Of a DNA stretch of 64,000 nucleotides, positions 1-18,181 are shown one piece after another. Source of the stretch: Lachnospiraceae bacterium MA2020 (GTDB lineage: Bacteria; Bacillota; Clostridia; Lachnospirales; Lachnospiraceae); the NCBI GenBank assembly GCA_000746015.1, contig JQKK01000016.1, positions 1 through 64,000 on the forward strand. The letters run 5' to 3'. Under the pieces are notes generated by a model. The model was not told where the DNA came from. It was given only the letters and a program-made list of their open reading frames with translations, and made no database searches. The first letter of the stretch is position 1. Each line of letters begins with the position of its first letter. The translations under genes were made by a program, and so were the position numbers.

Positions 1-116
1 CCCCCCCAGACCGTCCCAAAACTGGGATTTATCAGCATTTTCGTTGATGTTTTTTAATCCACATCTACTAATTTTAAGCACAAAAATAGCCTCACTTTTC
101 TTTTATTACTTTCGCA

Positions 117-1962
117 ATTGAAAACTGAATAAAATGCATAATATTTAGAAAAGTTAGGCTTGTTATTGTACCATTAATTCCATTAACTTATTGAATCCAA
201 GCATGTTTTTTGCCCGTTCTATATTATAGCCCAGGCACATGAGCGCAAATTCACCATCCACTTTCCGCATGCCTTTCAGCAGGAAGTAAGTGGCTCCCAT
301 TGCTCTTTTTATAGTTCCAAAAGGATGCTCAGACAGGCACATTCTTTTGGCTGTTTTTTGTCTGTCAGGCTTCAAGAAAAACTTTACTACCTGCAAAACT
401 TTATAATGAAACTTTGATGCTTTTCTTTTTGACTTTGCCTGACTCACATCTATTGTTTCTTCTGCTTCATTCCAAGTTTTGCAAGGTCTTTCTAATCCAT
501 CTTTTGTAAAATCAAGTTCCTTCCACTCGTTTTTTCCTTTGTAGCATTTATTGCGATTTTTACAATGACGGCAGGCTGTTTTATTTGCATATCTGATGCT
601 TCCATTTTTCTTGATACATTTCTGTCTTAGTATTTCTCCTGCGGGACAATACACGAGATTTCTTTCTGGGTCTCTTACAAAATATCCTTCCAATGCTCGT
701 GCCTTCATGGATTCCTCTGTACCATACACAGACTTTTCCGACTCTATTTTCTCGCTGTCAAGATCCTTACGCCGCACAGTTTTAACTTCCATTCCGCTTA
801 TTATATCTTTATAAACTTCTGGAATAACACCGGCATGAAGACATTTTTTTATTTCTTCTGGATTGTTGCTTTTTTCATTCGCTTCTGCTTCTTCGTAAGA
901 AATTTCAAGTTCATAACTATCTTTTCCGTCATCAGTAATTACATGTGGGATAATTCCATTTTCAAGACAAGATATCATATCATCTTCTTGTTCATATCCC
1001 TTATCTGCTACAACTTCGATTATTTCATCACCATTATTTTTCTTTATATCTTTTAGAGTTGAAAACAATAGGCCATGGTCTGTAACTTGATTTGTAGTAT
1101 TATAATCGCGAATAATATGAGTGTTTGAATCAACCGCAGTCTGTGGATTATAAGATACTGTAAACCCATTTTTATTTTTCATAAGTCTGGCATCCGAATC
1201 AGTAAGTGATTTTTGAGCTGCACCTGATTCTTCCATTTCACGCTGATAGCATTTGTATTTTTCCTGACGTTCTTTGGCTTCTTTAAGCTTTTCCTCTACA
1301 AGTTTTCTTTCTTCAGAATCAGAATTTTCATCTTTATCTTCAGCGTCCAAAACCCTCATATACTCTTCGATATGTCCATCAAGCCATTTAATTCTGTCAT
1401 CAATCTTATTTTTTGTAAAATTCCTGTCCTTGGAATTACATGCTTGAAATTTACTTCCATCTACGGAAATAAATCCCCACTCAACAGCCGAATCAATTCT
1501 TTTATTGAACTCATGAAATACTTTTTTCAAGCATTCAGCATTCTTTCTTCTGAATTCTGAAATAGTTCTATAATCTGGTTCAACTCCACCAATCAGCCAT
1601 TTGACTTCAATATTCACTTTACAATTTTTTGCAAGCTTTCGTGATGACCGAATCTGATTCTTATATCCATAAATGTAAAGCTTTAGCATTCCCTTCGGAT
1701 CATACAGAGGTCTTCCTTCTATTGCAGCTTCCTTAATGTCGAATTGCCCAAGATTAAGACCATCAACAAACTTATCGATAATTCTTGCGTCACTATCATC
1801 CGCTACCAGCGAATCCCATGCAACCATCATCAATTGATTTCTATCAAAAGTCTTTACATATGGCATAATTATCACCTCAATATTTAGTGGTTTAATACAT
1901 CTATTATACCATAAAAGCAAACTCCTAAACCTTGAATTTATGCACTTTATTCAGTTTTCAAT
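117..1962 (-). mobile_element. IS1182-family insertion sequence
   Basis: The transposase gene is bracketed by terminal inverted repeats of about 25 bp. The left end begins at 117 (ATTGAAAACTGAATAAAATG) and the right end finishes at 1962; its reverse complement reads the same apart from one A/G difference. No clear target duplication is seen, although short similar sequence (TTCG..) lies just outside both ends. Intact ends together with an intact transposase suggest a recent or still movable copy. Confidence 0.85.
163..1866 (-). CDS. IS1182 family DDE transposase
   Basis: This 567-residue transposase catalyses cut-and-paste movement of the surrounding element. The start chosen is the ATG of MPYVKTFDRNQ, because GAGGTGATAATT precedes it; longer upstream reading lacks a ribosome site. 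The N-terminal DUF772-type region is followed by the DDE core: VDGSKFQAC holds the first Asp, VVADKGYEQ the second, and SEHPFGTIKRAMG the Glu. A C-terminal cysteine set (CRHCKNRNKC) matches the zinc-ribbon-like part of the family. The reading frame is complete and of normal family length, so it is probably functional. Confidence 0.93.
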   Translation of the reverse strand: MPYVKTFDRNQLMMVAWDSLVADDSDARIIDKFVDGLNLGQFDIKEAAIEGRPLYDPKGMLKLYIYGYKNQIRSSRKLAKNCKVNIEVKWLIGGVEPDYRTISEFRRKNAECLKKVFHEFNKRIDSAVEWGFISVDGSKFQACNSKDRNFTKNKIDDRIKWLDGHIEEYMRVLDAEDKDENSDSEERKLVEEKLKEAKERQEKYKCYQREMEESGAAQKSLTDSDARLMKNKNGFTVSYNPQTAVDSNTHIIRDYNTTNQVTDHGLLFSTLKDIKKNNGDEIIEVVADKGYEQEDDMISCLENGIIPHVITDDGKDSYELEISYEEAEANEKSNNPEEIKKCLHAGVIPEVYKDIISGMEVKTVRRKDLDSEKIESEKSVYGTEESMKARALEGYFVRDPERNLVYCPAGEILRQKCIKKNGSIRYANKTACRHCKNRNKCYKGKNEWKELDFTKDGLERPCKTWNEAEETIDVSQAKSKRKASKFHYKVLQVVKFFLKPDRQKTAKRMCLSEHPFGTIKRAMGATYFLLKGMRKVDGEFALMCLGYNIERAKNMLGFNKLMELMVQ

Positions 1963-2140
1963 GTACGAATTTATATGTTAAACACCACAATATTTTGAGG
2001 TGCATTAACCATTAATATATACTGTCAAAGATTGACTTAATTTATCATTCATCTAGTTTTTAGACAGTCTCCCCCGAGTATTCTGTCAACAGTTTTGGAT
2101 TATGTTCTAAATATTATACATTTATATATTAATAGTAAAA
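1963..2140. other. AT-rich gap between IS end and pseudogene
   Basis: I see no gene, strong promoter or terminator here. The sequence is very AT-rich and probably belongs to the decayed locus that the insertion sequence entered. Confidence 0.5.
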
Positions 2141-2483
2141 TTGTCTGAATTTTTAAATTGTAGTTCTAAACTTTTCAGATGGATTTATGTCTGTCCGCAC
2201 AGGATAGAATTTGCAGATGCAATACGTAAAGTAAGTCATAAGGACACAATTATCCGTATACAGGAAAGTGATAAACTAATACGAGATGTTGTCGAAATGA
2301 ACGAAGCAGCTGTCGCTGCGCAAATAATGTAATGATACCGCCGACGGTGCAATTAAACAAATTCTTGAAAGAGATTATCCGGATAAGCTGAAGGACAGAG
2401 GTGAAGAGATACTTTTGGTAGGGATAAGCTACAATAAAAACGACCCTGATAAACATCACAGCTGCAAAATTGAAAAGATATAA
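2141..2483 (+). pseudogene. Remnant of AAA-ATPase-like/PD-(D/E)XK nuclease protein
   Basis: Two pieces of one protein family sit in different frames. The first piece (to about 2332) contains ESDKLIRDVVEMNEAAVAAQ, which resembles the linker of the large Lachnospiraceae/Bacteroidetes AAA-ATPase-like (DUF1703) proteins. The second, 2340-2483, reads ADGAIKQILERDYPDKL...EEILLVGISYNKN, the usual C-terminal end of the PD-(D/E)XK domain. Most of the nuclease domain between them, and the whole ATPase part, are missing. The gene has therefore lost its 5' part, suffered an internal deletion, and is not expected to make a working product. Family assignment is from memory of the motif pattern. Confidence 0.6.
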
Positions 2484-2492
2484 ATAAAGAAA

Positions 2493-2530
2493 GAACAGAT
2501 GCCTGCAAAAACAGACACCTGCTCTTTTTT
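2493..2530. terminator. Imperfect hairpin with T-run
   Basis: GAACAGATGCCTG pairs with CAGACACCTGCTC (three mismatches) and is followed by six T on the plus strand. The complementary A-rich side also gives the minus-strand operon (EamA gene end) a possible terminator. Confidence 0.55.
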
Positions 2531-2542
2531 ATAAACAATCAC

Positions 2543-3433
2543 CTATTTTTGTATTTTTACATTGTAATACCATTTAACTACCGACGCGCCGATTATTATG
2601 ACATAACCTATTATACTGTACACGTTTGGTACTTCTCCCAAAAACATGATTCCAATCAATGCTGCAAAGATGACCTGGGTATAGTCAAATACCGAGATCT
2701 CCTTTGCAGGGGCAAGGCTATACGCCTTTGTGATGCAGAACTGACCAAGTGCGGCAGATGCTCCTGCAAGTACAAGGCATTCCCACTGCTGTACGCTCAT
2801 CGGCTTGAAATTAAATATCAGAGACGGAAGAGTCACGAGCACGGAGAACATTGAGAAGCAAAAGACTATCACCGGTCCTCTCTCTCCCATCATGCCAAGC
2901 TTACGCACAAAAGTATACGCCGTACCTGCGCCAAAACCACTCAGAAGTCCTACAAGTGCCGGCAGGCTTGCAAGTCCCGCTGTCGGCTGTACGATGAAAA
3001 GCACTCCGACAAACGCAATGGCAACCATAAGCCACTCAAACTTATTTGGTATTTCTTTCAAAATGAACACTGACATCACGATAGCAAAAAATGGAGACAT
3101 TTTATTAAGGATATTTGCATCTGCTATAGCCAGATGGTCAATTGCCCAAAAGTTCATGATAAGACCCGTCGTGCCAAAAAGGCATCTCATAAATATGCCC
3201 TTATAACTCGTCTTCTTTATCTTAAAACCGTCATCAGATCTTGCAAGAGTAATACCCGCGATAACAGCCGCAACTGCATTTCTGAAAAAGGCTTTCTGCA
3301 TGGTCGGTACATCACCCGATAGCCTTACAAAAAACGTCATCATCGAAAAGCCAAAAGCTTCAAGTATTACAAATAAGATCGCGAGTGCATGTCTGTTTTG
3401 AACTTTAGTATTTTCGATCCTCGTATTTTCCAT
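2543..3433 (-). CDS. EamA/DMT family transporter
   Basis: A drug/metabolite-transporter family membrane protein of about 296 residues with two EamA repeats and roughly ten hydrophobic helices; substrate unknown. The repeats begin near HALAILFVILEAFGFSMMTF and near GPVIVFCFSMFSVLVTLPSL. It is the last gene of the Nif-like/Hyp operon, and its start region overlaps the end of hypE, so translation is probably coupled. An ATG at 3442 is also possible, but GAGG lies only 2 nt before it and 11 nt before the ATG at 3433, which I prefer. The context could mean export or uptake of a metabolite used or made by the operon, but this is inference. It may equally be an unrelated passenger. Confidence 0.8.
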   Translation of the reverse strand: MENTRIENTKVQNRHALAILFVILEAFGFSMMTFFVRLSGDVPTMQKAFFRNAVAAVIAGITLARSDDGFKIKKTSYKGIFMRCLFGTTGLIMNFWAIDHLAIADANILNKMSPFFAIVMSVFILKEIPNKFEWLMVAIAFVGVLFIVQPTAGLASLPALVGLLSGFGAGTAYTFVRKLGMMGERGPVIVFCFSMFSVLVTLPSLIFNFKPMSVQQWECLVLAGASAALGQFCITKAYSLAPAKEISVFDYTQVIFAALIGIMFLGEVPNVYSIIGYVIIIGASVVKWYYNVKIQK

Positions 3434-3435
3434 TT

Positions 3436-4440
3436 TTAGCATATCCTCGGAAGCAGCTCATTTCCCGGCTGCGGAAGTATTGTCTGAGTGCCTATCTCTG
3501 TTTCCATGATAACTCTGCCCCGATTTTCCTCAGTGATCACACCGATCTTGGCAGCTCCTGCAGTATCCGGGAACTCTTTTAATACTTCGATAAGCTTATC
3601 AGCCTTTTCTTCCGGAAGTATGATAACAAGTCTGCCCTCGCATGCGAGATAGAGCGGCTCAAGTCCAAGCATACCGGTAACTCCTCTTACCTCGTCGGCA
3701 ACAGGGATATCGCTTGCGCAAAGCTTTACACCGACTCCGCTCTCCTTTGTGATCTCGTAAAGAACTGTGCCTACTCCGCCTCGTGTAGCGTCTCTTACGA
3801 CGTGGATATCTCCTACCTTTGTGATAGCCGCTTCAACCGGATGCCAAAGCGGTGCACAGTCACTCTTTACATCAGCCTCGATACCATAGTCATCCCTTGC
3901 GAGAAGTATGCATGTTCCATGCCTTCCGACATCTCCGGTCACAACGATGGCATCACCCGGTCTTGCAAGGGCTCCCGAAGTATTTGCTCCTTCTATAAGC
4001 TCTCCGACACCGGTAGTAGTGATAAATACGCCGTCAACCTGACCCTTTCCTGCAACCTTTGTATCACCGGCAACGATCCTTACGCCGACTTTTGCAGCCG
4101 TCTCAGCCATAGCCGCTGCGATCTCTTTGAGCTTGTCCATCTCAAAGCCTTCCTCGATGACAAAACCACATGTCAGATATAGTGGTCTTGCTCCCATGCA
4201 TGAGAGGTCATTTACTGTACCGCAAATTGACAGCTTACCGATATTTCCGCCGTTAAAAAATGCCGGTGAAACAATGAAGCCGTCTGTTGTCATGGCTATC
4301 CTGCCATTTGGTCTTGGAAGTATAGCCGCATCGTCTGCTGTAAAAAATTCATTTGAAAAGTGTTCCTTGAACACTTTCTCTATAAGCTCGCTTGTCTGTT
4401 TACCACCTGCGCCATGTGCAAGCGTTACTGTTTCTGTCAT
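3436..4440 (-). CDS. hypE: Hydrogenase expression/formation protein HypE
   Basis: HypE accepts a carbamoyl group from HypF on its C-terminal cysteine and dehydrates it with ATP to a thiocyanate, the source of cyanide ligands for iron. The protein is about 334 residues, the normal length, and ends in PRIC, so the essential terminal Cys is present. The glycine-rich N-terminus (LAHGAGGKQTSELI) and ATP-binding AIRS-type core (TTDGFIVSPAFFNGGNIGKL) are typical. I chose the ATG of MTETVTL, with AGAGG 8 nt upstream. It follows hypD by 23 nt and overlaps the EamA gene. With HypC, D and F it would form the Fe(CN)2CO group, yet no NiFe hydrogenase is in the window. Confidence 0.95.
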   Translation of the reverse strand: MTETVTLAHGAGGKQTSELIEKVFKEHFSNEFFTADDAAILPRPNGRIAMTTDGFIVSPAFFNGGNIGKLSICGTVNDLSCMGARPLYLTCGFVIEEGFEMDKLKEIAAAMAETAAKVGVRIVAGDTKVAGKGQVDGVFITTTGVGELIEGANTSGALARPGDAIVVTGDVGRHGTCILLARDDYGIEADVKSDCAPLWHPVEAAITKVGDIHVVRDATRGGVGTVLYEITKESGVGVKLCASDIPVADEVRGVTGMLGLEPLYLACEGRLVIILPEEKADKLIEVLKEFPDTAGAAKIGVITEENRGRVIMETEIGTQTILPQPGNELLPRIC

Positions 4441-4463
4441 TTTCATTTCCTCTTTTTCTATGA

Positions 4464-5504
4464 TTAACCGAACTGATAATATGCGCTGCATGTACCCTCA
4501 TTTGATACCATGCACGCTCCTACCGGGTGCTCCGGTGTGCATACCTTGCCAAAGAGCGGACACTCATGTGGCTTGCACTGGCCTTTGAGTATCTCACCGC
4601 ATCTGCAGCCAGGATTACTCCTGCCGGAGGTACGTGTGATATTGAATTTCTTTGCCGCATCAAAGCCTGCATACTCCTCGCGCAGCTCTCTCCCGGAATT
4701 TTCTATAACTCCGATTCCTCTCCACTCAGCGTCGCAAGGCTGCATATACTTATCAACAAGAGCCATTGCTTCCGGGCTGCCCTTTCCTGTGACTACACGT
4801 GGATATGCATTTACCAAAAATGGCTTACCCTCACCAAACTTCTTGACAGCTATAGCCAGAGCTGTAAGAAGCTCAGACGGAGTAAAGCCTGCTATTACAC
4901 CGCTCATACCCTTTGCAAGCATATCTTCACAGTCCTTAAGTCCTGTAATAGTATGGACATGTCCCGGATAAAGATATACATCCGTATGATCTGCCATCGC
5001 ACTATATGCACCCGGCATTGTCTTGTTTGCTGTGAGAAGTGAAAAATTGCTGATACCGTCAGCTTCTGCATTTTTTACAGCTATGCATGATGAAGGAGTA
5101 GTCGTTTCAAATCCAACCGACAAAAACGCAACCTCTTCATCCGGATGCTCAACAGCATACTTCTCTGCATCCTGCGGAGAATAAACAGTCTGAATCCTTG
5201 CACCTTTCGCTCTTGCTCCGGCAAGACTCATCTCAGAGCCCGGCACTCTTACGAGATCTCCAAATGTGCATATCGTAACATTATGCTCAAGCGCCAGTTC
5301 CACTGCCTCATCTATAAAACCGGCAGGTGTAACGCATACCGGGCATCCAGGTCCCGATATCAGCTCTATCTTATCAGACAGAAGATTTCTTATTCCATGT
5401 CTGAAAATTTCATGTGTATGTGTTCCGCAGACCTCCATTATACGGATCTTTTCACCGTCATAATTTTTCAAAAGCTCTGCAGCTTTTTTCGTAGCTTCTG
5501 TCAT
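4464..5504 (-). CDS. hypD: Hydrogenase formation protein HypD
   Basis: HypD is an iron-sulfur protein that with HypC forms the scaffold on which iron receives two CN and one CO. Its 346 residues carry the family signatures: MEVCGTHTHEIFRHG near residue 25, GPGCPVCVTP near 50, and a C-terminal cysteine cluster for the [4Fe-4S] centre (NPGCRCGEILKGQC then CPLFGKVC). All expected cysteines appear present. The start ATG overlaps the hypC stop by one base (TAATG), so the pair is translationally coupled. The gene is complete with no sign of decay. Confidence 0.96.
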   Translation of the reverse strand: MTEATKKAAELLKNYDGEKIRIMEVCGTHTHEIFRHGIRNLLSDKIELISGPGCPVCVTPAGFIDEAVELALEHNVTICTFGDLVRVPGSEMSLAGARAKGARIQTVYSPQDAEKYAVEHPDEEVAFLSVGFETTTPSSCIAVKNAEADGISNFSLLTANKTMPGAYSAMADHTDVYLYPGHVHTITGLKDCEDMLAKGMSGVIAGFTPSELLTALAIAVKKFGEGKPFLVNAYPRVVTGKGSPEAMALVDKYMQPCDAEWRGIGVIENSGRELREEYAGFDAAKKFNITRTSGRSNPGCRCGEILKGQCKPHECPLFGKVCTPEHPVGACMVSNEGTCSAYYQFG

Positions 5505-5716
5505 TATTTCAAGAACTCCTCTGCAAGAATATCTGATTCATTTTCATCATCATCTGTGATCTTTGCGATAGCTGAACCCGCATGAACCATGACAAAATCT
5601 CCCGGCTCAAGATCAGCGATAAGCTCTGATGACACACTTCTCCTTGCTCCGGATGCGTCAACCAACGCTGTACCATTACTTACCTTTATTACTCTAGCTG
5701 ATAAACCAACACACAT
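5504..5716 (-). CDS. hypC: Hydrogenase maturation chaperone HypC
   Basis: A 70-residue HypC/HybG-type chaperone that binds HypD and carries the Fe(CN)2CO unit to its target. The invariant N-terminal Met-Cys (MCVGLSARVIKV) is present; the Cys is exposed after Met removal and binds iron. The OB-fold continues as EPGDFVMVHAGSAIAKI, the family hallmark. It lies between hypF (6-nt gap) and hypD (1-nt overlap). The acidic tail (TDDDENESDILAEEF) is ordinary for the family. The target protein in this organism is uncertain because no hydrogenase gene is adjacent. Confidence 0.95.
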   Translation of the reverse strand: MCVGLSARVIKVSNGTALVDASGARRSVSSELIADLEPGDFVMVHAGSAIAKITDDDENESDILAEEFLK

Positions 5717-5722
5717 AACTTT

Positions 5723-8020
5723 TTACTCCTTATTAATAAACGAAGCCTGTCCAAGGCATAATCCGCCGTCATTTGGCGGAACCAATGAATGGATGAGTAC
5801 ATTATAACCGTATCTCTCTAATCGGCTATGAGTCAACTCAAGAAGCAGTGTATTTTGAAATACTCCGCCACTCAATGCGATCGTACTGATACCGGTCTTG
5901 TCTGAAGCATATTTCAAAGCCTCTGCGATCTCGGCGGCAAGCGCCGCATGAAACTCAAATGCAAGCTCATCTGACGGTCTGTGCGCAAGCACACCTTCAA
6001 CCAACGTCTTAAATAAACTGTCGGTAGGCAGATGTGCAAAACCATCTGTATCTATTATCGGCAAAATTTGATCTTTCTCAAGAGCCACTTCAAAAAGACC
6101 TCTTTCTGCTGCAAACTGAAGCTCTGTAGCTGCTTCTCCTTCAAAGCTCGACTCTTTGCATATGCCAAGCAGGGCACTCACCGCATCAAACAGCCTTCCG
6201 GCACTGGTCGAAACTGCTGTATTTAAGCCTTTCTCAGTCATTTTTGCGATCAGCTTTACATCTGATGCCTTGCAAAGACCTGTCTCTTCTGCTATCGCTG
6301 CTGCTCTGTCTGAGCCATAGACAGATGCAAGAAGCGATGCTGCGATCCTCCAGCCTGATTTTGAAGCGCTATCACCGCCCACCTGCTTGAACGGCACTAT
6401 CGAGCCAAGCCTTTCAAAACTGCTGCAAGTGCACCTCAGAATTTCGCCGCCCCATATCGTGCCATCCGTGCCGTAACCGGTACCATCAAAGGATGCTCCA
6501 AGCACTTCGCCATCAAAGGCATTTTCTGCCATACACGATAAAATATGGGCATAATGATGCTGAATTTTTACCGGCTTTACACCATAGCTTTCAGAGAGCA
6601 TCTCTGCGACTTCTGTAGAATGATATCCCGGATGCAGGTCACAGACCACCTCCGGCTTCTCTATCTCAAGCATCCTTCCTACAAGATCTATTGAACTTTT
6701 CAACGCTTCAACAGATCTGATATCAGCAAGATCTCCGATAAAAGCAGATGGATAAGCCATATTCCTGCGCCTGTAGCAAAACGTATTTTTCAGCTCTCCG
6801 CCAACCGCAAGCGTATTACCATCTTTCGTTCTTCCAAGCTTAAAAGGAAGAGGTGCAAATCCACGCGAGCGGCGTATCATGTATGGCTTGCCGCGATAAA
6901 AATCCATCACTGTATCATCGGCACGAGTCCTTATCGGACGGTCATGCGACAGTATCAGATCTACAAAACTTCCAATCTCTTTTAATGCTTCATCATCGGT
7001 ATGACATATCGGCGCTCCAGATACATTTCCGCTCGTCATCACAAGCGCAGACGGCATATTGACGCCATCCGGATAATCAAACAACAGCATGTGAAGAGGT
7101 GTGTACGGCAGCATAACGCCTAGTCGCGGATTGCCCGGTGCAACCGAATCAGCAAGTGAAGTATCATCTTTACGCTTAAGCAGCACTATCGGCTTTTGAT
7201 GCCCCATCAGCATCTCGCGCTGCTCCGGAGTAATCTCGCACTCATCCTCTGCCGCTTCTATATCTTTCATCATAACGGCAAACGGCTTACGCGGGCGGTT
7301 TTTCCTTTCTCTAAGGAGCTCAACCGCTGCCTCATTTGTAGCATCACATGCCAGATGAAATCCACCAATGCCCTTTATGGCTACGATCTTGCCATCAGCC
7401 AAAGCCTTCCTTGCATGAGTGATCGCATCGCCACTTTTTATATCACTTCCGACGATGTACACTTCCGGGCCACAGTCCGGGCAGCATACCGGCTGCGCAT
7501 CATAGCGCCTGTCAGTGCTGTCGTGATACTCTCTGCTGCACTCATCGCACATAGGAAAATCCTTCATGGTAGTGCGCTCCCGGTCATACGGAAGATTTTC
7601 AAGTATAGTAAATCTCGGTCCACACTGGGTACAGTTAATGAATGGATGCAGATATCTTCGGTTATTTTTGTCAAATAATTCTCTCCTGCAGTCCTCACAT
7701 GTCGCAATATCCGCCGGGATAAAAATCTCCCCTGAAGTTCCACGGCTCTCGACTATCTCAAAACCGTCATACTCCCTATACGCCAGAGAAATATCATCAA
7801 TCCTCTGAATATCTGCCCTGTCGGGAGGACTTTCACGAAGAAGCTTCTTCAGTGCATTTATCGAGCTGCTTTCGCCCGTCGCAATTATCTCCACATAAGG
7901 TCCATAATTGCACACACTTCCTGAAACCCCATGCATTTCGGCAAAGCGAGCCACTGTCGGGCGAAATCCCACCCCCTGCACAATTCCATAAATCTTTAAT
8001 TGTCTTGTCTCTCTTGCCAA
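5723..8020 (-). CDS. hypF: Carbamoyltransferase HypF
   Basis: HypF makes carbamoyl-adenylate from carbamoyl phosphate and ATP and transfers the carbamoyl to HypE. Domains in order: acylphosphatase (YGIVQGVGFRPTVARF), two zinc fingers (CEDC with CTQC; CDEC with CPDC), YrdC-like domain (KGIGGFHLACDA), and Kae1-like domain (HHYAHILSC; SFDGTGYGTDG; ALSGGVFQN). Length is normal, about 765 residues. A GTG at 8062 extends the frame but overlaps the upstream gene and has no ribosome site. I prefer the TTG at 8020: GAGGGAG lies 11 nt before it, and the resulting N-terminus MARETRQLKIYGIVQGVG matches family practice. The gene follows the NifDK-like fusion closely, in one operon. Confidence 0.94.
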   Translation of the reverse strand: MARETRQLKIYGIVQGVGFRPTVARFAEMHGVSGSVCNYGPYVEIIATGESSSINALKKLLRESPPDRADIQRIDDISLAYREYDGFEIVESRGTSGEIFIPADIATCEDCRRELFDKNNRRYLHPFINCTQCGPRFTILENLPYDRERTTMKDFPMCDECSREYHDSTDRRYDAQPVCCPDCGPEVYIVGSDIKSGDAITHARKALADGKIVAIKGIGGFHLACDATNEAAVELLRERKNRPRKPFAVMMKDIEAAEDECEITPEQREMLMGHQKPIVLLKRKDDTSLADSVAPGNPRLGVMLPYTPLHMLLFDYPDGVNMPSALVMTSGNVSGAPICHTDDEALKEIGSFVDLILSHDRPIRTRADDTVMDFYRGKPYMIRRSRGFAPLPFKLGRTKDGNTLAVGGELKNTFCYRRRNMAYPSAFIGDLADIRSVEALKSSIDLVGRMLEIEKPEVVCDLHPGYHSTEVAEMLSESYGVKPVKIQHHYAHILSCMAENAFDGEVLGASFDGTGYGTDGTIWGGEILRCTCSSFERLGSIVPFKQVGGDSASKSGWRIAASLLASVYGSDRAAAIAEETGLCKASDVKLIAKMTEKGLNTAVSTSAGRLFDAVSALLGICKESSFEGEAATELQFAAERGLFEVALEKDQILPIIDTDGFAHLPTDSLFKTLVEGVLAHRPSDELAFEFHAALAAEIAEALKYASDKTGISTIALSGGVFQNTLLLELTHSRLERYGYNVLIHSLVPPNDGGLCLGQASFINKE

Positions 8021-8036
8021 AATTACATCATCTCCC

Positions 8037-10352
8037 TCAAGTACCTTCAGGTCTTGTACCACTTATCGCAAAATGCGTCATATTTGTCCATTCACCGCTG
8101 AAGTCTTTTGCGAGAGCCTTCAGACATTCATCAGCAAATATATGATCAAATCCGGAACCTGCAAGCTCCATGAAGTCGTTTTCTTCACGAAGTTTTACAT
8201 CCTGACTCTCCTTGATCTCACGATTCATCATAAAGAAAGAAGCCACCGTCACATCTACAGACGGATACTTTGAACGTATCAGATCTCTGAGCGAATTTGC
8301 TGCCACCTGGCTGTGAACGATAAGTATCTTTTTATTGTTTAAATCCTGCTCATCGCGTAAGTATCTGCCCGCCAGAGGGTATCCTATCTCATAAGTTTTG
8401 CCTGTCTTTTCAGCCAGTTTTTTAGCCGCCTTTATCGCACCCGAAGACACCACAAGCATATCTGTCTTTGCCGACTTCTTCCACTCTGCCATAAGCTCAT
8501 CTTCTGTAATCCCCATAAAATCAAGCGGTGTAAAGCCTAAAAGCTCTCTTGTATCATCATAAGAAACCAGCTCAAGCTCAGCTTTCTCAATACCCTTGTC
8601 ATAAAGATCCATTCCATTGGAAGAAACTGCAATAACATCAATCCCTGTGCGCTTTTTCACCATAGTTGCAAGCGCTCTGTAGTCAGTACCTATAACAGCC
8701 GGTACCGGAGTACCCACAAGCGCTATGAACTTCGCATCAATGATCTTAGCTGCATTTTCAAGCTTCTGCACAAGAGCCTCGTCACGCCCTAAGATCGCAT
8801 CCATATCTCGAAGTCCTGCACTGAATACTGCACTTTTGCTGTCAGTCCATCTTGGCTCATCAAAGCCACACACATTTCCCGTACAGCCACCTGCATCAAT
8901 GATGACTATTAATCCGTCAAGCCCATAAAGAAGGGAGACTGCTCCACTCTGATCCGGCGCAAAAGGTGTCAGTATCTTTCTGAATCCCTTAACCTTAGAA
9001 CTTTGGATATTTCTGACTATCTCAGGCCTGTAAACATTCTCCGGTACTATCGGCTTTTGAAGCTCGCCAGAGCTGAGCGCAGCATCTACAGCACCTAAAA
9101 GTCTGATCAGTCCATCATATCCAAACGGCTGCTCATCACTATTCCATGCGACATTTGGACATTCACTATGGTAAAGACCTGCGTCGCGCCCGATAGTTAT
9201 GTCAACTATTACTTCATCAGAATTATAATAAAGCATCGAAGGATCCTGATTGCAGTATATACGAGTCTGGGGACTGAGCTCAGAAAGCCTGTCTATCCAG
9301 AAGTATGACTCAGCCGTAACTACTGCAAAAATTTCCTTTATTGCTACACCCATCTGTGACAGCGCCACTGCAAGCTCAAACGGATTGCCATTCATGCTCT
9401 CACCGATTGAAACAGCAAGCCCTTTATGACGACTGCTAAAATCCTCGACAGCCTTTTTTGCATTTTCATACATTCCACTATCGTCACACTTCGTACCGAT
9501 AGCATGGAAAAACGCATTATACTGTCTGTGTATCCTCTCAACATCGTGGAATCTCTGTAATTCAACATAAGGCTGTCCGAGTCTTGTCGAAAGATCATCC
9601 GCTGCCGCTCTCGCCTCCTGATTCAGCACGATATTAAAACTGGCCTCAGACATTCCCATGAACTCATCATAGGACGCACAGCGTGATATCTCATTTATCT
9701 TTTTTACTCCTGCACTCTTAAGCAGAGTATAAAGCTCTGATGTCTCAAAAAGCCCCGCAAAAAATCCAAGCAGATTTACATGTGTAGAGCGGCGCTTTCT
9801 CTTTTCAAGAAGTGAATACAACGACTGCCTTACATGAACCATTGGTGGCTTGCGGCCTTCGCGCGTAAGCGCATACATGTAGCACGGTCTCACCCTTACG
9901 CCGCACTTCTCCTCCGCCTGCCTCGAAACCCTGTCCATATCAGTGCCCAAAAGCGCATCAGCACATGTAACACAGAGCATCACAAGACTAGGCTTCTCGC
10001 CAAGATAAGTAATTATATCGTCTATCGCACCGCTTATCTTTGAAAGATGCCTTCCTGTGACAAGGTCTGTCTCGTCCATTGTCAGATAGAAAAATCTGTC
10101 CCTGTACTGCGGAAGCGTGCTGAGCTCAGACGTATTACGTCCGCAGCATCCCGGTGATATGATCAGCATCACAGATCCCGGTATAGAAAGACCTGCCCTC
10201 TTTACTCCAAAGCCCTTGGCTCCGGGAGAATTATAGGCAAGCGTTGCAGGTGAACTATATATAAGATGCGATGAAAGCGTAAACTCGGACGGGATATCAG
10301 CACTCGTTCTCTTTGATAATTCACTTGCAGTATAAAAGGTTGCTTTACTCAT
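8037..10352 (-). CDS. Fused NifD/NifK-like nitrogenase component 1 protein
   Basis: A 771-residue protein made of two successive nitrogenase component-1 (oxidoreductase) domains, roughly residues 30-440 and 450-760. The family includes NifDK, BchNB, CfbD and uncharacterised Nfl proteins; it takes electrons from a NifH-type ATPase to reduce a bound substrate or cofactor. In the N-half, SPGCCGRN (Cys69/70) and [12 protein letters not shown] (Cys127/130) fall where P-cluster ligands 2 and 3 lie. In the C-half, [10 protein letters not shown] (Cys490/495) is present, but the third position reads [11 protein letters not shown], without Cys. A simple [4Fe-4S] centre rather than a P-cluster is the likely result. 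The fused arrangement resembles a minimal ancestral half-dimer. ATG chosen with AAGGTG upstream; it overlaps nifH by 8 nt. Substrate unknown. Confidence 0.85.
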
Positions 10353-11106
10353 TTTCTTCACCTTCTAAGAGCTTCTTCGCAAGCTCCATATACTGTCTGC
10401 TTACTGGAAGCGTATCGTCTCCCTCGATGACAGTCCTGCCCATTTCCTCATATCTGATGATATCATCACTTCTGTCGATATGACCTATTATCTCAAGACC
10501 GTTCTCCTTAGCAAAAGCTTCAACCTTTTCATTTTCATTCTCGACATTTCTATGATTAAGGACGACCCCCCTTACTCTTGCATAGCCTCTGTCTGCAAAA
10601 TTCTTAACTGCCTCGTTGATATTTCTTGCAGCATAAAGTGCCATCTTCTCACCGGATGTCACTATCACTACCTGCTCGGCATATCCTTCACGGATAGGTG
10701 CTGCAAATCCACCGCACACAACATCTCCGAGTACGTCATAAAGCACTACATCGGGCTTCTCTATCTCAAAAAGCTCAAGCTCATCGAGCAGGTGAAATGT
10801 AGTAATGATTCCGCGGCCTGCGCATCCGAGTCCCGGTGTAGGTCCGCCTGTCTCTATGCAGAGCACTCCGCCGTATCCCTCTTTAGTTATCTCGTGATAG
10901 TCCTCCGGCAAAGTGTCATATTTTCTCATATAGTCCATTACGGATCCGACTGCTTCTCCTCCGAGAAGATTCATTGTAGAGTCTGCCTTTGGATCACATC
11001 CGATCTGTATTACTTTTTTTCCAAGCTTTGTAAAAGCTGCCGCAAGGTTAGCCGTAGTAGTAGATTTACCTATGCCACCCTTACCGTATATTGCAAGTTT
11101 TAACAT
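10345..11106 (-). CDS. NifH-like nitrogenase iron protein (reductase ATPase)
   Basis: A 253-residue NifH/BchL/CfbC-type homodimeric ATPase that donates electrons to a component-1 protein. The deviant Walker [10 protein letters not shown] is at residues 8-16; GCDPKADST follows at 37-44. The two [4Fe-4S] ligands are intact: Cys95 in GLGCAGRGI and Cys131 in [11 protein letters not shown]. It is shorter than true NifH and lacks nearby nifE/N/B genes, so dinitrogen fixation is not supported. Start: ATG with AGAGGA 6 nt upstream. First gene of the operon, overlapping the NifDK-like gene. The pair thus looks like a complete reductase of an uncharacterised nitrogenase-like group. Confidence 0.9.
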
Positions 11107-11159
11107 CAAAATTCCTCTTAATAATCTTTGTTAATTTATTATCTAATTCATGTCCTACC

Positions 11160-11188
11160 ATTGTATGCCAAAAACAGGATAGAAGCAA
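11160..11188 (-). promoter_or_regulatory. Promoter of nifH-like/hyp operon
   Basis: On the minus strand, -35 TTGCTT (11183-11188) and -10 TACAAT (11160-11165) are 17 bp apart. Transcription would start near 11153, about 45 nt before the NifH-like gene. Confidence 0.65.
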
Positions 11189-11210
11189 GGTGAAAATAAT
11201 GAACAATATT

Positions 11211-11245
11211 GAAAAAGAGCCATCCGGCACACACCGGACAGCTCT
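11211..11245 (-). terminator. Terminator of ecf-truA operon
   Basis: Read on the minus strand, AGAGCTGTCCGG pairs with CCGGATGGCTCT, followed by a T-run. It lies just after the truA stop and separates this operon from the NifH-like promoter. Confidence 0.8.
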
Positions 11246-11255
11246 CACCTACGAG

Positions 11256-11999
11256 TTACTCATCCAAAATCCTTATCTCAACCAGCGTCAGTCCACATGC
11301 CGGAGCAGTCGGACCGGCGGCATTTCTGTCACATGCATCGAGTATCTCCTGCATCTTTTCAGGCGGATACTTTCCGGCACCGATCTCCATTAAAGTCCCT
11401 GCAATGATGCGTACCATGTTGTATAAAAATCCATAGCCCTTCACAGTTATCCTGATCTCATCATCAACACGCTCGACTTTTGCAGCCGTGATCTCCCTGA
11501 CAGTAGTCTTTGCCTGCGTATGGATCGATGACAAACTCTTGAAGTCATGCTCTCCTACCAGATAGTCTGCTGCTCTCTGCATCAGATCCGTATCCATCTT
11601 TGTGTAGCTGTAATGAGTATACAGGCGCTTAAGAGGATTAGGAAACTGTGAATTGCATATCCTGTAACAATATGTCTTTTCAGTCTGTACAAATCTGGGA
11701 TGAAAATCGGCCGCCACCTCTCTCGAGGCCACGACCTTAATATCATCCGGAAGATGAGTATTCAGCGCATAGCTGAACTTCTCCGCAGGCATCCTTGCAT
11801 TGGTATCAAAAACCGCAAGGTTTCCCATTGCATGCACGCCTGCATCAGTTCTGCTCGCGCCGCTCACTTCCACCTTTTCATGTGTTATCTCTTCTATTGC
11901 ACGATTAAGCTCACTTTCAATAGTCTGAGCTCCATCCTGCACCTGCCACCCATGATATGCAGTGCCATCATAGGCTACAGTAAGCATTACTCTTTTCAT
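11256..11999 (-). CDS. truA: tRNA pseudouridine(38-40) synthase TruA
   Basis: TruA converts uridines 38-40 of the tRNA anticodon arm to pseudouridine in the cytoplasm. The 247-residue protein has the standard start (MLTVAYDGTAYHGWQ), the catalytic Asp in GASRTDAGVHAMGN, and the C-terminal KGYGFLYNMVRIIAGT segment. It overlaps the ecfT stop by 4 nt (ATGA), keeping the common Firmicutes order ecfA-ecfA-ecfT-truA. In many Firmicutes that set is embedded in the ribosomal protein cluster; here rplQ and rplM-rpsI are absent, so the module has been relocated or separated. Confidence 0.97.
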   Translation of the reverse strand: MKRVMLTVAYDGTAYHGWQVQDGAQTIESELNRAIEEITHEKVEVSGASRTDAGVHAMGNLAVFDTNARMPAEKFSYALNTHLPDDIKVVASREVAADFHPRFVQTEKTYCYRICNSQFPNPLKRLYTHYSYTKMDTDLMQRAADYLVGEHDFKSLSSIHTQAKTTVREITAAKVERVDDEIRITVKGYGFLYNMVRIIAGTLMEIGAGKYPPEKMQEILDACDRNAAGPTAPACGLTLVEIRILDE

Positions 12000-12802
12000 A
12001 TAGGGCTCATTTCTCCTGCAACTATAACGCCGACAAAATAAACTGCAAGTACCGCAAATGTCACATAGTCAAGATGGATATACTTAAGCGGCTTCATCTT
12101 TGTCCTGCCGTCTCCGCCTCGATAGCATCTGGCTTCCATAGCCATTGCAAGGTCATTTGCACGTCTGAATGCTGATACAAAAAGCGGCACAAGTATAGGC
12201 ACAAGGCTCTTTGCTCTCTCTATCAGATTGCCGTGCTCAAAATCGGCACCTCTCGCAGCCTGCGCTCTCATTATCTTGTCTGTCTCATCCATAAGTATAG
12301 GAATAAATCTGAGCGCAATAGACATCATCATAGCTATCTCATGCACCGGGGCCTTAAAAAATCTCAGTGGATTCATGAGGCTCTCAAGTCCGTCTGTAAG
12401 CTGGTTTGGCGTAGTCGTCAACGTCAGAAGTGAAGTGCCTATGATGAGATAGATAAGCCTTACCGCTGTAAATATCGCCATCTTCAAGCCTTCATCAGTT
12501 ATTGCAAACTTACCGAAACTGACTAAAGGATTTCCCGGTGTCAAAAACATATTGAAGACTACAGTGATCAAAAGAATGGTTATAATGCTCTTCATTCCAC
12601 GCATGATGTAGCTGAAAGGAACTGTAGATGCCTTTACCATCAGTATCAAAAATAAAGTTGCTACTGCAAAAGCTCCGACATTTCTGAAAATGAAAAGCGA
12701 AACGAGATACACCAGCGTACCGACAAGCTTAGTGCGCGGGTCCATCCTGTGAAGCGGTGACTCCGCCTGATAATATTGTCCAATTGTTATGTCTCTAAGC
12801 AT
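11996..12802 (-). CDS. ecfT: ECF transporter transmembrane protein EcfT
   Basis: EcfT is the membrane coupling subunit of group II energy-coupling-factor transporters; it links two ATPases to exchangeable vitamin-binding S components. The 268-residue protein has several hydrophobic helices and two coupling-helix motifs near the C-terminus, seen as AQAARGADFEHG and AMEARCYRGGDG. The start overlaps the end of the ATPase gene by 8 nt, indicating coupled synthesis. No S component lies nearby, as expected for a shared ECF module. Confidence 0.95.
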   Translation of the reverse strand: MLRDITIGQYYQAESPLHRMDPRTKLVGTLVYLVSLFIFRNVGAFAVATLFLILMVKASTVPFSYIMRGMKSIITILLITVVFNMFLTPGNPLVSFGKFAITDEGLKMAIFTAVRLIYLIIGTSLLTLTTTPNQLTDGLESLMNPLRFFKAPVHEIAMMMSIALRFIPILMDETDKIMRAQAARGADFEHGNLIERAKSLVPILVPLFVSAFRRANDLAMAMEARCYRGGDGRTKMKPLKYIHLDYVTFAVLAVYFVGVIVAGEMSPI

Positions 12803-14603
12803 TTTCCCTAAAACTCCTTAGTATCTCAACTCTCGCCTCTGCAACAGTAGTCACATTAGTCCCCACCTTGAAGCCCGTATCTTTAAGATCCTGCATGATG
12901 TATGAAACATTTGGCGCTGCAAGTCCCATCTTTTCAAGGTCTTCTTTATATGCAAATACATCATGAGGCTCGCCGTCCATCATGATCTTGCCATCATTTA
13001 CTACAAGTATACGGTTTACATAATCAGCAACATCTTCCATACTGTGTGATACAAGTATGACCGTGATGCCCTGCTCATCGTGAAGATCTTTCACAAGTCC
13101 AAGTATCTCATCTCTTCCCTGCGGATCAAGCCCGGCTGTTGGCTCATCAAGCACGAGGATATCCGGCTTCATCGCAAGTACTCCGGCGATAGCAACTCTC
13201 CTCTTTTGTCCTCCGGAAAGCTCAAACGGAGATGCGTAGAAATATTCATCCGGAAGCTTTACGGCCTTGAGAGCAGCGTATGCTGACAGCTCTATCTCTT
13301 TTTCTGACAGCCCCATATTTTTAGGTCCAAAGCAAACATCCTTAAAAACAGTCTCCTCAAAAAGCTGGTGCTCCGGATACTGAAATACCAGACCCACGTG
13401 TGAACGGAGCTTACGCATGTCATAGCCCTTTTCGTATATATCCTCACCATTAAAATATATGTGCCCGCCTGTCGCCTTTGTAAGACCATTTAAGTGCTGT
13501 ACAAGAGTAGATTTTCCCGATCCGGTGTGACCGATAAGACCAATAAACTCTCCCTTATTTATAGTAATGGATACATCATTAAGTGCATGTATCTCGTCAG
13601 CAGTTCCCTTGCTGTAGACATAGTCAACATGATCAAGTATCAAAAGCGGCTTTTCTTCCGAAAGAGACTTATGCTCGACCTCAGCGCCCTGCTGCTCTGC
13701 AAGACTTGCCTCTGCCTTTGCGATAACGCTGTCTGATACAGTTGCTCCCATCGTTTTTCTCTCTTTAAGTGCGGCGATGAGCTCTTTTTTATCAAGTACG
13801 CCCTTTTTATTTATAAGTCCATCATTCTCAAGATGCCATGCAAGTACTGTCGCCTGCGGTACATCAAGTCGGAGCTCTCTAAGTTTATCCACATTTGAGA
13901 AGATCTCCCTTGGTGTTCCCTGCATAGCCACCTTTCCCTTACTCATGACGATGACTTTGTTGGCAAATACTACCTCTTCCATGTAATGAGTGATAAGGAT
14001 GACTGTTACACCCTCAACCTGATTTAAGGCACGGGCTGCCCTTATTACCTCATGACGTCCGGAAGGATCGAGCATCGCAGTAGACTCATCAAGTATTATG
14101 CATTTTGGATGCATGGCAACTACTCCGGCTATAGCCACTCTCTGCTTCTGTCCTCCGGAAAGCTTATTGGGAGAGTGCTTGCGATACTTATACATATCAA
14201 CAGTCTTGAGTGCTTCCTCGACTCTCTCCCAGATCTGCTCTGTAGGTATGCCCATATTTTCAGGACCAAATCCGACATCTTCTTCAACTACATTTCCGAT
14301 GATCTGGTTGTCAGGATTCTGAAATACCATACCGGCAGTCTGTCGTATGCTCCACGTATTCTCAAATGCAGAAGTGTCCTTGCCGTCAACCATCACTTTA
14401 CCTTCTGTCGGATAAAGTATCGCGTTTATGTGCTTTGCAAGTGTAGACTTTCCAGATCCGTTACCTCCAAGGATAGCTACAAAGTCACCCTTCTTTATAT
14501 CAATATTTACCTTGTCAACGGCTCTTGTGATGCCCTCGACATTTCCTTCTTCATCTCGCCTTATATATTCAAATACCAGGTCTTTTGTCTCAACTATTCC
14601 CAT
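12795..14603 (-). CDS. Fused ECF transporter ATPases EcfA1-EcfA2
   Basis: A 602-residue protein carrying two complete ABC ATPase domains that are usually separate genes. Domain 1 (about 1-270, EcfA1-like) has GGNGSGKST, LSGGQKQRVAIAG and CIILDESTAML. Domain 2 (about 310-600, EcfA2-like) has GHTGSGKST, LSGGQKRRVAIAG and ILVLDEPTAGLD. A linker of roughly 40 residues, rich in Ala, Glu and Lys, joins them. Both sites look catalytically complete. It feeds ATP energy to EcfT for vitamin or metal uptake. The ATG has only a weak ribosome site. The fusion would force heterodimer formation with fixed stoichiometry; the domains are in the normal A1-A2 order. Confidence 0.94.
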   Translation of the reverse strand: MGIVETKDLVFEYIRRDEEGNVEGITRAVDKVNIDIKKGDFVAILGGNGSGKSTLAKHINAILYPTEGKVMVDGKDTSAFENTWSIRQTAGMVFQNPDNQIIGNVVEEDVGFGPENMGIPTEQIWERVEEALKTVDMYKYRKHSPNKLSGGQKQRVAIAGVVAMHPKCIILDESTAMLDPSGRHEVIRAARALNQVEGVTVILITHYMEEVVFANKVIVMSKGKVAMQGTPREIFSNVDKLRELRLDVPQATVLAWHLENDGLINKKGVLDKKELIAALKERKTMGATVSDSVIAKAEASLAEQQGAEVEHKSLSEEKPLLILDHVDYVYSKGTADEIHALNDVSITINKGEFIGLIGHTGSGKSTLVQHLNGLTKATGGHIYFNGEDIYEKGYDMRKLRSHVGLVFQYPEHQLFEETVFKDVCFGPKNMGLSEKEIELSAYAALKAVKLPDEYFYASPFELSGGQKRRVAIAGVLAMKPDILVLDEPTAGLDPQGRDEILGLVKDLHDEQGITVILVSHSMEDVADYVNRILVVNDGKIMMDGEPHDVFAYKEDLEKMGLAAPNVSYIMQDLKDTGFKVGTNVTTVAEARVEILRSFRENA

Positions 14604-14648
14604 GTGTTTTACCGTTTTTCCATAATTATCGTAGTGTTCAACTTTATA

Positions 14649-14676
14649 ATTATACCGTCTATGCTGTATTTTTGAA
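14649..14676 (-). promoter_or_regulatory. Probable promoter of ecfA-ecfT-truA
   Basis: A perfect TATAAT on the minus strand (14649-14654) lies about 45 nt before the ATPase start. The -35 at 17-bp spacing (TTTCAA) is weak. Confidence 0.5.
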
Positions 14677-14716
14677 AGTAAAAATTACACACCCTGAATT
14701 GTATTTACTTTTGTAC

Positions 14717-14745
14717 TTGCTATTTTAAATTGTCTATGCTATTAT
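14717..14745 (+). promoter_or_regulatory. Promoter of candidate small RNA
   Basis: TTGCTA (14717-14722) and TATTAT (14740-14745) are separated by 17 bp on the plus strand; the start would be near 14752. No protein gene follows on this strand, only the two-hairpin RNA candidate. Confidence 0.6.
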
Positions 14746-14751
14746 TAATTC

Positions 14752-14873
14752 ATCAAAAACAAACAAACGAAAGGCGGCGAGTGCTTCACCTAACGGCTGT
14801 TTGTAAAACGTTTAGAAGATGGATTAGAAAGAGTGGCGCGTGCCTCGCTCAATCGAAACCATCTTTTTTTTTT
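14752..14873 (+). ncRNA. Candidate two-hairpin small RNA with intrinsic terminator
   Basis: Two tandem hairpin units lie between a good promoter and a ten-T run. Unit A is closed by ACAAAC (14763-14768) with GTTTGT (14799-14804); unit B by AGATGG (14817-14822) with CCATCT (14859-14864). Inside both, the same architecture recurs: 3-bp stem, single bulge, GGC, a GNGT tetraloop (GAGT or GCGT), GCY, TCR bulge, 3-bp stem, AAY. The 3-bp stems differ between units (AGG/CCT versus GAG/CTC) but still pair, which supports a real RNA fold. It matches no RNA class I can name. It lies between divergent and convergent protein genes, so it looks free-standing rather than a leader. Confidence 0.6.
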
Positions 14874-14901
14874 GCGCTTTTTAAATGACTGATAATATAC
14901 G

Positions 14902-14926
14902 AAAAGAGCCACCGCATGGTGACTCT
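14902..14926 (-). terminator. Terminator of 4-epimerase gene
   Basis: Minus-strand AGAGTCACC-ATGC-GGTGGCTCT followed by TTTT, directly after the epimerase stop. Confidence 0.8.
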
Positions 14927-14930
14927 CTTA

Positions 14931-15905: not shown

Positions 15906-15960
15906 TGCTATTTTCGCTCCTCTAAACTCAAAAAACATTGGTTTTTCCACAATGAAGATA

Positions 15961-15989
15961 AGTATAGCTCATTTTAAAACATAGTGCAA
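15961..15989 (-). promoter_or_regulatory. Promoter of 4-epimerase gene
   Basis: Minus strand: -35 TTGCAC (15984-15989), 17-bp spacer, -10 TATACT (15961-15966). Confidence 0.65.
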
Positions 15990-15995
15990 ATACTC

Positions 15996-16030
15996 AAAAG
16001 AACCCGCAAGCAAAAATGCTTTGCGGGTTC
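15996..16030 (-). terminator. Terminator after glgB
   Basis: GAACCCGCAA pairs with TTGCGGGTTC and is followed by TTTT on the minus strand. A second hairpin (16041-16073, ATAGTAA..TTACTAT) lies between it and the glgB stop. Confidence 0.8.
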
Positions 16031-16075
16031 TATGTTTTTTATAGTAAGCGACAAAAGTCTTTTCGTTTACTATGC

Positions 16076-18148: not shown

Positions 18149-18181
18149 TATTTAATTGCCCCCATTATATATTTTTTGACT

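Follow-up and report, generated by a model that had tools for sequence, protein, structure and literature searches.

Lachnospiraceae bacterium MA2020 carries a compact operon in which genes for a nitrogenase-like reductase adjoin those for HypF, HypC, HypD and HypE. It lies in a 64,000-nucleotide stretch of DNA, hereafter the window (contig JQKK01000016.1 of assembly GCA_000746015.1, positions 1 to 64,000), where seven minus-strand genes run from 11106 to 2543 in the order nifH-like, fused nifDK-like, hypF, hypC, hypD, hypE and an EamA gene. The nifH-like, nifDK-like and hypFCDE genes, here termed the block, are read as the core of a HydG-independent pathway to the H-cluster of [FeFe] hydrogenases. 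This replacement of HydG is well supported and is given a probability of roughly 0.78, including a variant in which the NifDK-like proteins are scaffolds; its biochemical roles and the source of carbon monoxide (CO) are what we infer. The observations behind it are the gene content, operon linkage to hydE, hydF and TM1266, the absence of HydG from genomes that mostly have HydE, HydF and HydA, and a HypD clade apart from other HypDs. Because HydG is gone and HydE and HydF are kept, something must supply an equivalent of the HydG product.

A first-pass annotation, made from the sequence alone, had proposed that the operon joins an Fe-cyanide/carbonyl pathway to ATP-driven reduction, and the analysis supports this as a reading. 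The annotation had also held that the target is not an adjacent [NiFe] hydrogenase, which agrees with the lack of any [NiFe] large subunit (PF00374) in the organism's own genome at an E value of 0.001. It left the actual target open and missed H-cluster maturation.

Absence of HydG and linkage to H-cluster genes

Of 295 genomes from the order to which the organism belongs, 134 have a HydG (TIGR03955) score above the cut-off, yet none of the 15 that carry the block does. Among these 15, HydE was found in all, HydF in 14 and HydA in 12, the HydE and HydA searches having been run on 25 selected genomes. Related loci were taken as the best 80 of 476 relatives obtained by scanning one genome for each species, and the genomes tested for 50 of them contain HydF in 47 cases and HydG in none. 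Thus, across 65 block genomes (15 of the order and 50 from related loci, with no overlap seen), HydG is over its cut-off in 0 and HydF in 61. At the loci themselves, tblastn returned no HydG match above 250 bits in any of the 80. Among the 147 genomes listed of the 151 with HydF over its cut-off, HydG occurs in none of the 14 with the block versus 123 of 133 others (p 1.5e-13), a value that is overstated because the species are related, the 14 representing six genera of three families. A radical S-adenosylmethionine protein of the ThiH type was considered as a possible HydG in the 50 related-locus genomes and rejected, as the best match reached approximately 206 bits against a cut-off of 312, covered positions 14-391 of 470 and left the C-terminal part of HydG unmatched. 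These sub-cut-off matches are presumably ThiH-type proteins.

The block is also linked physically to H-cluster assembly genes. Fifty-five related loci extend at least 9.5 kb downstream, and in these tblastn, run here as for all locus gene counts with the listed reference proteins only, found TM1266 in 40, HydF in 22, HydE in 10 and HydA in 1, with at least one of TM1266, HydE and HydF in 48. The same loci contain a second set of Nif-like genes (NifD2 in 50, NifK2 in 46 and NifH2 in 22). The typical order is nifH-D-K-hypF-C-D-E-TM1266-(nifH2)-D2-K2 followed by hydF or hydE, with operon-like spacing. Two loci, L095 and L096, read nifH-nifDK-hypF-C-D-E-hydE, with 14 and 18 nucleotides before hydE, and their NifD-like sequences are the most identical to that of the window among the kept relatives (70% and 66%). 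In several loci from Coriobacteriaceae or Atopobiaceae (L124, L134, L136, L148, L152, L159 and L172), hydE, hydF or both stand upstream on the opposite strand. All ten neighboring proteins that were scanned (four HydE, three HydF and three TM1266) exceed the cut-offs of TIGR03956, TIGR03918 and TIGR03959, respectively. Hand-chosen control loci lack this arrangement. HydG adjoins hydF in 17 of 20 loci from HydG-bearing genomes of the order, with Nif-like or Hyp genes in 0, and none of 15 hypD loci from block-less genomes has hydE, hydF, TM1266 or Nif-like genes beside it. Of these 15 HypD proteins, 11 belong to the group that is not Nif-linked in the tree described below; the other 4, which are not in the tree, are 38-46% identical to the HypD of the window.

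In the organism's own genome, hydF and hydE lie side by side (G000:C18), and a HydA of 576 amino acids (G000:C6) scores 476 bits against the TIGR02512 cut-off of 406. This HydA has all three sequence patterns that we take to be its H-cluster motifs, TSCCPGW, MPCVAKKAE and EVMACPGGCAGG. At L180:7010-10581 (G000:C6), HydA (A6-like) follows a 615-amino-acid protein whose domains are NuoF-like and of the NAD(P)-binding glutamate-synthase type and which may be its electron-bifurcating partner. Additionally, a second NifD2/NifK2-like pair with no adjacent nifH is found at L031:8187-10579 (G000:C5).

Conservation and composition of the block

A search of the 295 genomes with the fused NifDK-like protein, termed D1-K1 after its two halves, matched 33 at 1e-10. 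The close type of D1 is present in 15 of these, the organism's own genome included, and the others have either just the second pair or more distant kinds of protein. In 12 of the 14 other genomes with a close D1, the hyp genes directly adjoin D1-K1. In G293, the contig ends before hyp genes would appear, and this is the only one of the 15 genomes in which HypD was not found. In G238, hypFCD lie approximately 12-16 kb from D1-K1, beside another NifD-like gene (L035:8168-13244); the D1-K1 fusion of that genome (L034:9125-11676) has only 592 amino acids and a shortened K part.

The 80 related loci belong to records named Lachnospiraceae, Oscillospiraceae/Ruminococcaceae, Coriobacteriaceae, Atopobiaceae and others (Bacillota, Actinomycetota), among them Coprococcus comes, Blautia sp. 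MSJ-19, Eubacterium ramulus, Faecalicatena contorta and Pseudoramibacter alactolyticus. All four of hypF, hypC, hypD and hypE are present in each of the 63 related loci with 7.5 kb or more of sequence on the downstream side of D1. The nifH/nifDK-like plus hyp gene set is far beyond chance. The first-pass annotation would have given way had the Nif-like pair routinely occurred without hyp genes; for the close pair this was not found, all four hyp genes being present in the 63 loci with room, and G238 is the one near relative whose hyp genes are not adjacent. In Blautia sp. MSJ-19, approximately 2.9 kb with three open reading frames (204, 245 and 132 amino acids) separate the nifD-like and nifK-like genes (L156:11290-14160, approximate). 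Four other loci (L047, L048, L049 and L050) carry a distant NifHDK-like set whose identity to D1 is about 30%, and none of the four gave a match to a hyp gene; two of them, L047 and L049, have beside this set what looks by eye like an iron/cobalamin-type ATP-binding cassette transporter.

The Hyp proteins retain their key residues. Cys2 and His45 of HypC are present in 68 of 68 aligned sequences and the C-terminal PRIC of HypE in 64 of 64, the window included in both, and the HypD cysteines are retained. As the cyanide chemistry of the Hyp proteins is established (PMC12130793), conservation of the Met-Cys start of HypC, the HypD cysteines and the HypE PRIC suggests that this chemistry should be intact. 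In a HypD tree, 45 Nif-linked sequences form one clade with 100/100 support, separate from 19 other HypDs. The 45 comprise the window, 33 others (every second complete HypD of the 80 loci) and 11 from genomes of the order. This separation points to a dedicated Hyp set with an evolution of its own. G238 has one HypD of each clade, and the HypD that is not Nif-linked stands alongside hypC, hypE, hypA (by eye) and a group 4-type [NiFe] large subunit.

Two PF00148 stretches in one protein of 774 amino acids indicate a fusion of D and K, a form found in 26 of the 80 relatives. The P-loop and Cys95/Cys131 of the NifH-like protein (H1) are conserved in 76 of 76 aligned sequences and D1 Cys72, 73, 130 and 133 in 80 of 80, the window included in both, and K1 Cys48 and 53 in 74 of 74. 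The equivalence of D1 Cys133 is visible in a profile alignment with NifE and an alpha chain; the conserved cysteines of D1 and K1 would fit an Fe-S site on the P-cluster side, an assignment that beyond Cys133 is conjectural. The profile alignment of D1 reaches the P-cluster side only; the ligands of the iron-molybdenum cofactor are taken to be Cys275 and His442. His105 of D1 is the only histidine conserved at 95% over 80 sequences, and His398 is invariant in a set of 11.

An AlphaFold2 model of the fused protein has a component-1 fold (predicted local distance difference test score 88.4, predicted template modeling score 0.88), and its top Foldseek match is the fused GmNifEN. VIA-align Z scores are approximately 16-17 for chains of NifEN, the molybdenum-iron (MoFe) and vanadium-iron proteins, methylthio-alkane reductase and dark-operative protochlorophyllide reductase (DPOR) alike, with mostly the D half aligned, and this tie across the superfamily shows no special kinship with NifEN. 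The best NCBIfam match of D1-K1 is nifE at 85 bits, far below the cut-off of 505, and the nifD model gives 32 against 654. An ordinary nitrogenase, DPOR or F430 reductase was rejected on such scores, the further ones being 213 against 345 for BchL, 295 against 402 for CfbC, 33 against 490 for BchB and 36 against 268 for CfbD.

In the window, the seven-gene minus-strand operon of the first-pass annotation was recovered with tight junctions, which range from a 26-nucleotide overlap to gaps of under 20 nucleotides, and each of the seven family assignments was borne out by Pfam and NCBIfam scans (Table 1). Two details of that annotation fared less well. A consensus scan (9-of-12 rule) lists no minus-strand promoter immediately before nifH, which leaves the claimed single promoter unproven, and the EamA gene that it counted in the system has no match above 60 bits in any of the 80 related loci. 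The EamA gene was accordingly rejected as a system component and is probably a passenger. Start context places the HypE start at ATG 4446 or 4440; the longest open reading frame begins at 4491. The hairpin at the operon end is a consensus match only, the region having 8 such hairpins found against 7.2 expected. No known RNA element reached its gathering score in window positions 1-20000. Downstream of the operon, a 585-amino-acid protein (163-1920) has by eye the look of an insertion-sequence transposase.

Table 1. Features of the operon in the window.
Feature	Position	Strand	Basis
NifH-like Fe protein, ATP-dependent reductase (H1), 253 amino acids	10345..11106	-	PF00142 1.2e-88; nifH model 300.8 bits, below 394 cut-off
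Fused NifD-like and NifK-like component 1 (D1-K1), 774 amino acids	8037..10361	-	PF00148 in two stretches
HypF carbamoyltransferase	5723..8062	-	TIGR00143 777 bits, cut-off 466
HypC scaffold chaperone, starts MC	5504..5716	-	TIGR00074 57 bits, cut-off 48
HypD scaffold, Nif-linked clade	4464..5504	-	TIGR00075 384 bits, cut-off 193; own clade 100/100
HypE, ends PRIC	3436..4446	-	TIGR02124 407 bits, cut-off 252
EamA-family transporter, probably passenger	2543..3442	-	PF00892
Terminator-like hairpin, operon end, after EamA gene	2490..2527	-	17 pairs and T-rich tail

Proposed pathway and competing explanations

In the canonical route, HydG uses tyrosine to form Fe(Cys)(CO)2(CN), which it then passes to HydE (PMC11736057). 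In the pathway proposed here, HypF and HypE would convert carbamoyl phosphate to an enzyme-bound cyanide donor, and the dedicated HypC-HypD pair would build a mononuclear Fe-cyanide/carbonyl unit, as the conserved HypCDEF residues and known Hyp chemistry suggest. The NifH-like ATPase would feed electrons of low potential to the NifDK-like protein and also to the second such protein that most relatives have. Most likely, CO2 or some other one-carbon compound would thereby be reduced to the CO ligands; failing that, the Fe unit itself would be reduced or remodeled. Of these two roles, the second NifDK pair may have the one that the first does not. The Fe(CO)x(CN) unit formed in this way would substitute for what HydG makes and pass through HydE and HydF as usual, with HydF handing the [2Fe] unit to the apo-hydrogenase.

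Supply of CO by the NifH/NifDK-like proteins is favored, with modest confidence, over a NifEN-like remodeling scaffold, because HypE and HypF give cyanide and HypC and HypD a scaffold, which leaves CO missing, and nitrogenase Fe proteins reduce CO2 to CO (PMC9571451). The origin of CO under anoxic conditions is described as open, and CO2 reduction would need approximately -530 mV and ATP (PMC12134894). It is put forward tentatively that ATP-driven reductases of this kind make a hydrogenase cofactor's CO ligands at or next to the HypCD scaffold, with CO2 as their probable source. The remodeling version retains the replacement of HydG and is also possible, if somewhat more doubtful. It holds that the NifDK-like proteins are NifEN-like scaffolds on which NifH remodels the HypCD-made Fe unit, for example from Fe(CN)2CO to Fe(CN)(CO)2, with CO from elsewhere. 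In its favor are NifE, which leads the NCBIfam matches and is one of the best matches to PDB profiles, GmNifEN at the top of the Foldseek list, the frequency of natural fusions and the presence of two component-1 proteins, which suggests two steps; the tied Z scores of NifEN, MoFe, DPOR and methylthio-alkane reductase chains speak against it.

Several observations weigh against a HydG replacement in general or against parts of it. Hyp normally makes Fe(CN)2CO (PMC12134894) and the HydG product is Fe(Cys)(CO)2(CN), so the ligand ratio must change. Against the CO2 step, labeling excluded exogenous CO2 as a direct source of CO for a [NiFe] enzyme of Ralstonia eutropha, an organism that has HypX (PMC12134894). 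The program that built the HypD tree warned of long branches between groups. The organism's own hydF/hydE, hydA and second NifDK pair are on contigs other than that of the window. No HydF was found in G295, G302 or G339, and in G281 none exceeded the cut-off; HydA is below its cut-off in 3 of 15 block genomes (G238, G281 and G287). Moreover, ten HydF-positive genomes have neither HydG nor a detected block (G008, G017, G053, G129, G151, G156, G174, G252, G260 and G268), and five of these, namely G017, G252, G260 and G268 (one genus) and G156, hold HydE besides HydF. HydG loss therefore does not require the block, and another solution or a dead system exists. G151, which has HydE too, carries the second NifDK pair only, at a contig end; G151 and G174 belong to the same genus as the block-bearing G084 and G135. 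G017 and G260 contain TM1266-hydE-hydF clusters (L181:9047-11544 and L183:8703-11200), with no HydG, HypD or D1-type NifDK found, and the clusters of this genus could represent a third route to the H-cluster. G156 has a hydA-hydE-hydF cluster (L182:9805-13678) with no HydG or HypD found, and a distant NifHDK-like set elsewhere (L020).

The HydE- and HydF-bearing G017 genus also lends something to the idea, raised in PMC9431212, that organisms lacking HydG equip the H-cluster from traces of free CO and cyanide, the block being incidental. HydE and HydF without HydG gave approximately 1% activation in vitro (PMC9431212). This account is nonetheless improbable, as a conserved operon with dedicated HypCDEF and reductases would be unexpected if trace ligands sufficed. 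It is rather unlikely, too, that HypCDEF-made Fe(CN)/CO units form part of a new cofactor with which the NifDK-like enzyme reduces some other substrate, the link to hydE and hydF being regulatory or one of shared biosynthesis; this corresponds to the open reading of the first-pass annotation. The component-1 fold is in keeping with such an enzyme, as is the fact that the Nif-like pair and hyp genes make up the tightest block (63/63), but this account leaves unexplained both the absence of HydG from 15 and 50 block genomes and the presence of hydE, hydF and TM1266 in the same operons.

The least probable explanation is that the hyp genes mature a group 4 [NiFe] hydrogenase and that the Nif-like genes are an unrelated neighbor. 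Group 4-type large subunits do occur in 8 of 15 block genomes of the order and 4 of 50 related-locus genomes, and the six that were read, from both genome sets, have both CxxC pairs. A second complete HypD was not found in 7 of the 8 (G281 has two HypD fragments and G293 none), so the same Hyp proteins may serve both enzymes there; both findings count against a pathway devoted to the H-cluster. The first-pass annotation would have yielded to hyp genes that simply serve a [NiFe] enzyme encoded elsewhere; no such enzyme was found in the organism's own genome, and these 8 genomes go part of the way. Maturation of [NiFe] enzymes alone was rejected and is contradicted as a general account, since no large subunit was found in the organism's own genome, in 7 of 15 or in 46 of 50. 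Furthermore, G238, the one genome of the 8 with a second complete HypD, keeps a separate hypCDE at its large subunit, with that HypD outside the Nif-linked clade, and Nif-like genes are found in 0 of the 15 control hypD loci.

Relation to known systems

Among the papers listed by the literature searches, with preprints outside their scope, none was seen to describe this gene set, none on HydG-less organisms came up in a search made for them and nothing relevant was met on H2 for a named block-bearing species. A review states that HydE, HydG and HydF are found in all microorganisms with [FeFe] hydrogenase (PMC6212873). That HydG is missing in some acetogens was noted earlier, in a passage that does not offer the present explanation (PMC9431212). 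The metabolic source of CO for hydrogenase maturation under anoxic conditions has been called the most pressing open question (PMC12134894). The block looks like an undescribed second way to the Fe-CO-CN core of [FeFe] hydrogenases in many gut and rumen bacteria. If so, part of gut hydrogen metabolism would depend on an uncharacterized route to the cofactor, HydG would no longer be a safe marker for [FeFe] maturation, the origin of CO in anoxic maturation would become open to attack with defined genes, and nitrogenase-like enzymes would gain a new job. Should the reductases also supply CO, the H-cluster would have a second origin, non-homologous to the first, in which the cofactor chemistries of nitrogenase, [NiFe] and [FeFe] enzymes come together, and a genetic handle would exist on the source of the CO ligand in anaerobes.

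Among known systems, HydEFG maturation shares HydE, HydF, TM1266 and HydA with most block genomes tested, and HydE, HydF and TM1266 are often encoded in the same operon as the block. It differs in that no HydG over cut-off was found in the block genomes tested, which have nifHDK-like and hypFCDE genes instead; the place of the block is comparable to that of HydG in TM1266-HydE-HydG-HydF clusters. The HypA-F machinery of [NiFe]-hydrogenase maturation is likewise similar in that HypC, HypD, HypE and HypF exceed curated cut-offs and keep their key cysteines. However, no [NiFe] target was found in the genome of the window, HypD falls in a separate clade, and nitrogenase-like genes are fixed partners of the hyp genes of the block. 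With nitrogenase NifHDK and the NifEN scaffold, the block has in common a NifH-like ATPase, a component-1 fold and a natural fusion as in GmNifEN, whereas all listed nif equivalog models are under their cut-offs, those for D and K far under. DPOR (BchLNB), CfbCD and methylthio-alkane reductase also pair an ATP-driven NifH-like protein with a component-1 partner, and fold scores are similar for the chains of DPOR and methylthio-alkane reductase. Unlike DPOR and CfbCD, the proteins of the block fall below the BchL, BchN/B and CfbC/D cut-offs, and the reductase of the window adjoins Hyp genes, as do those of its relatives, which often adjoin Hyd genes as well.

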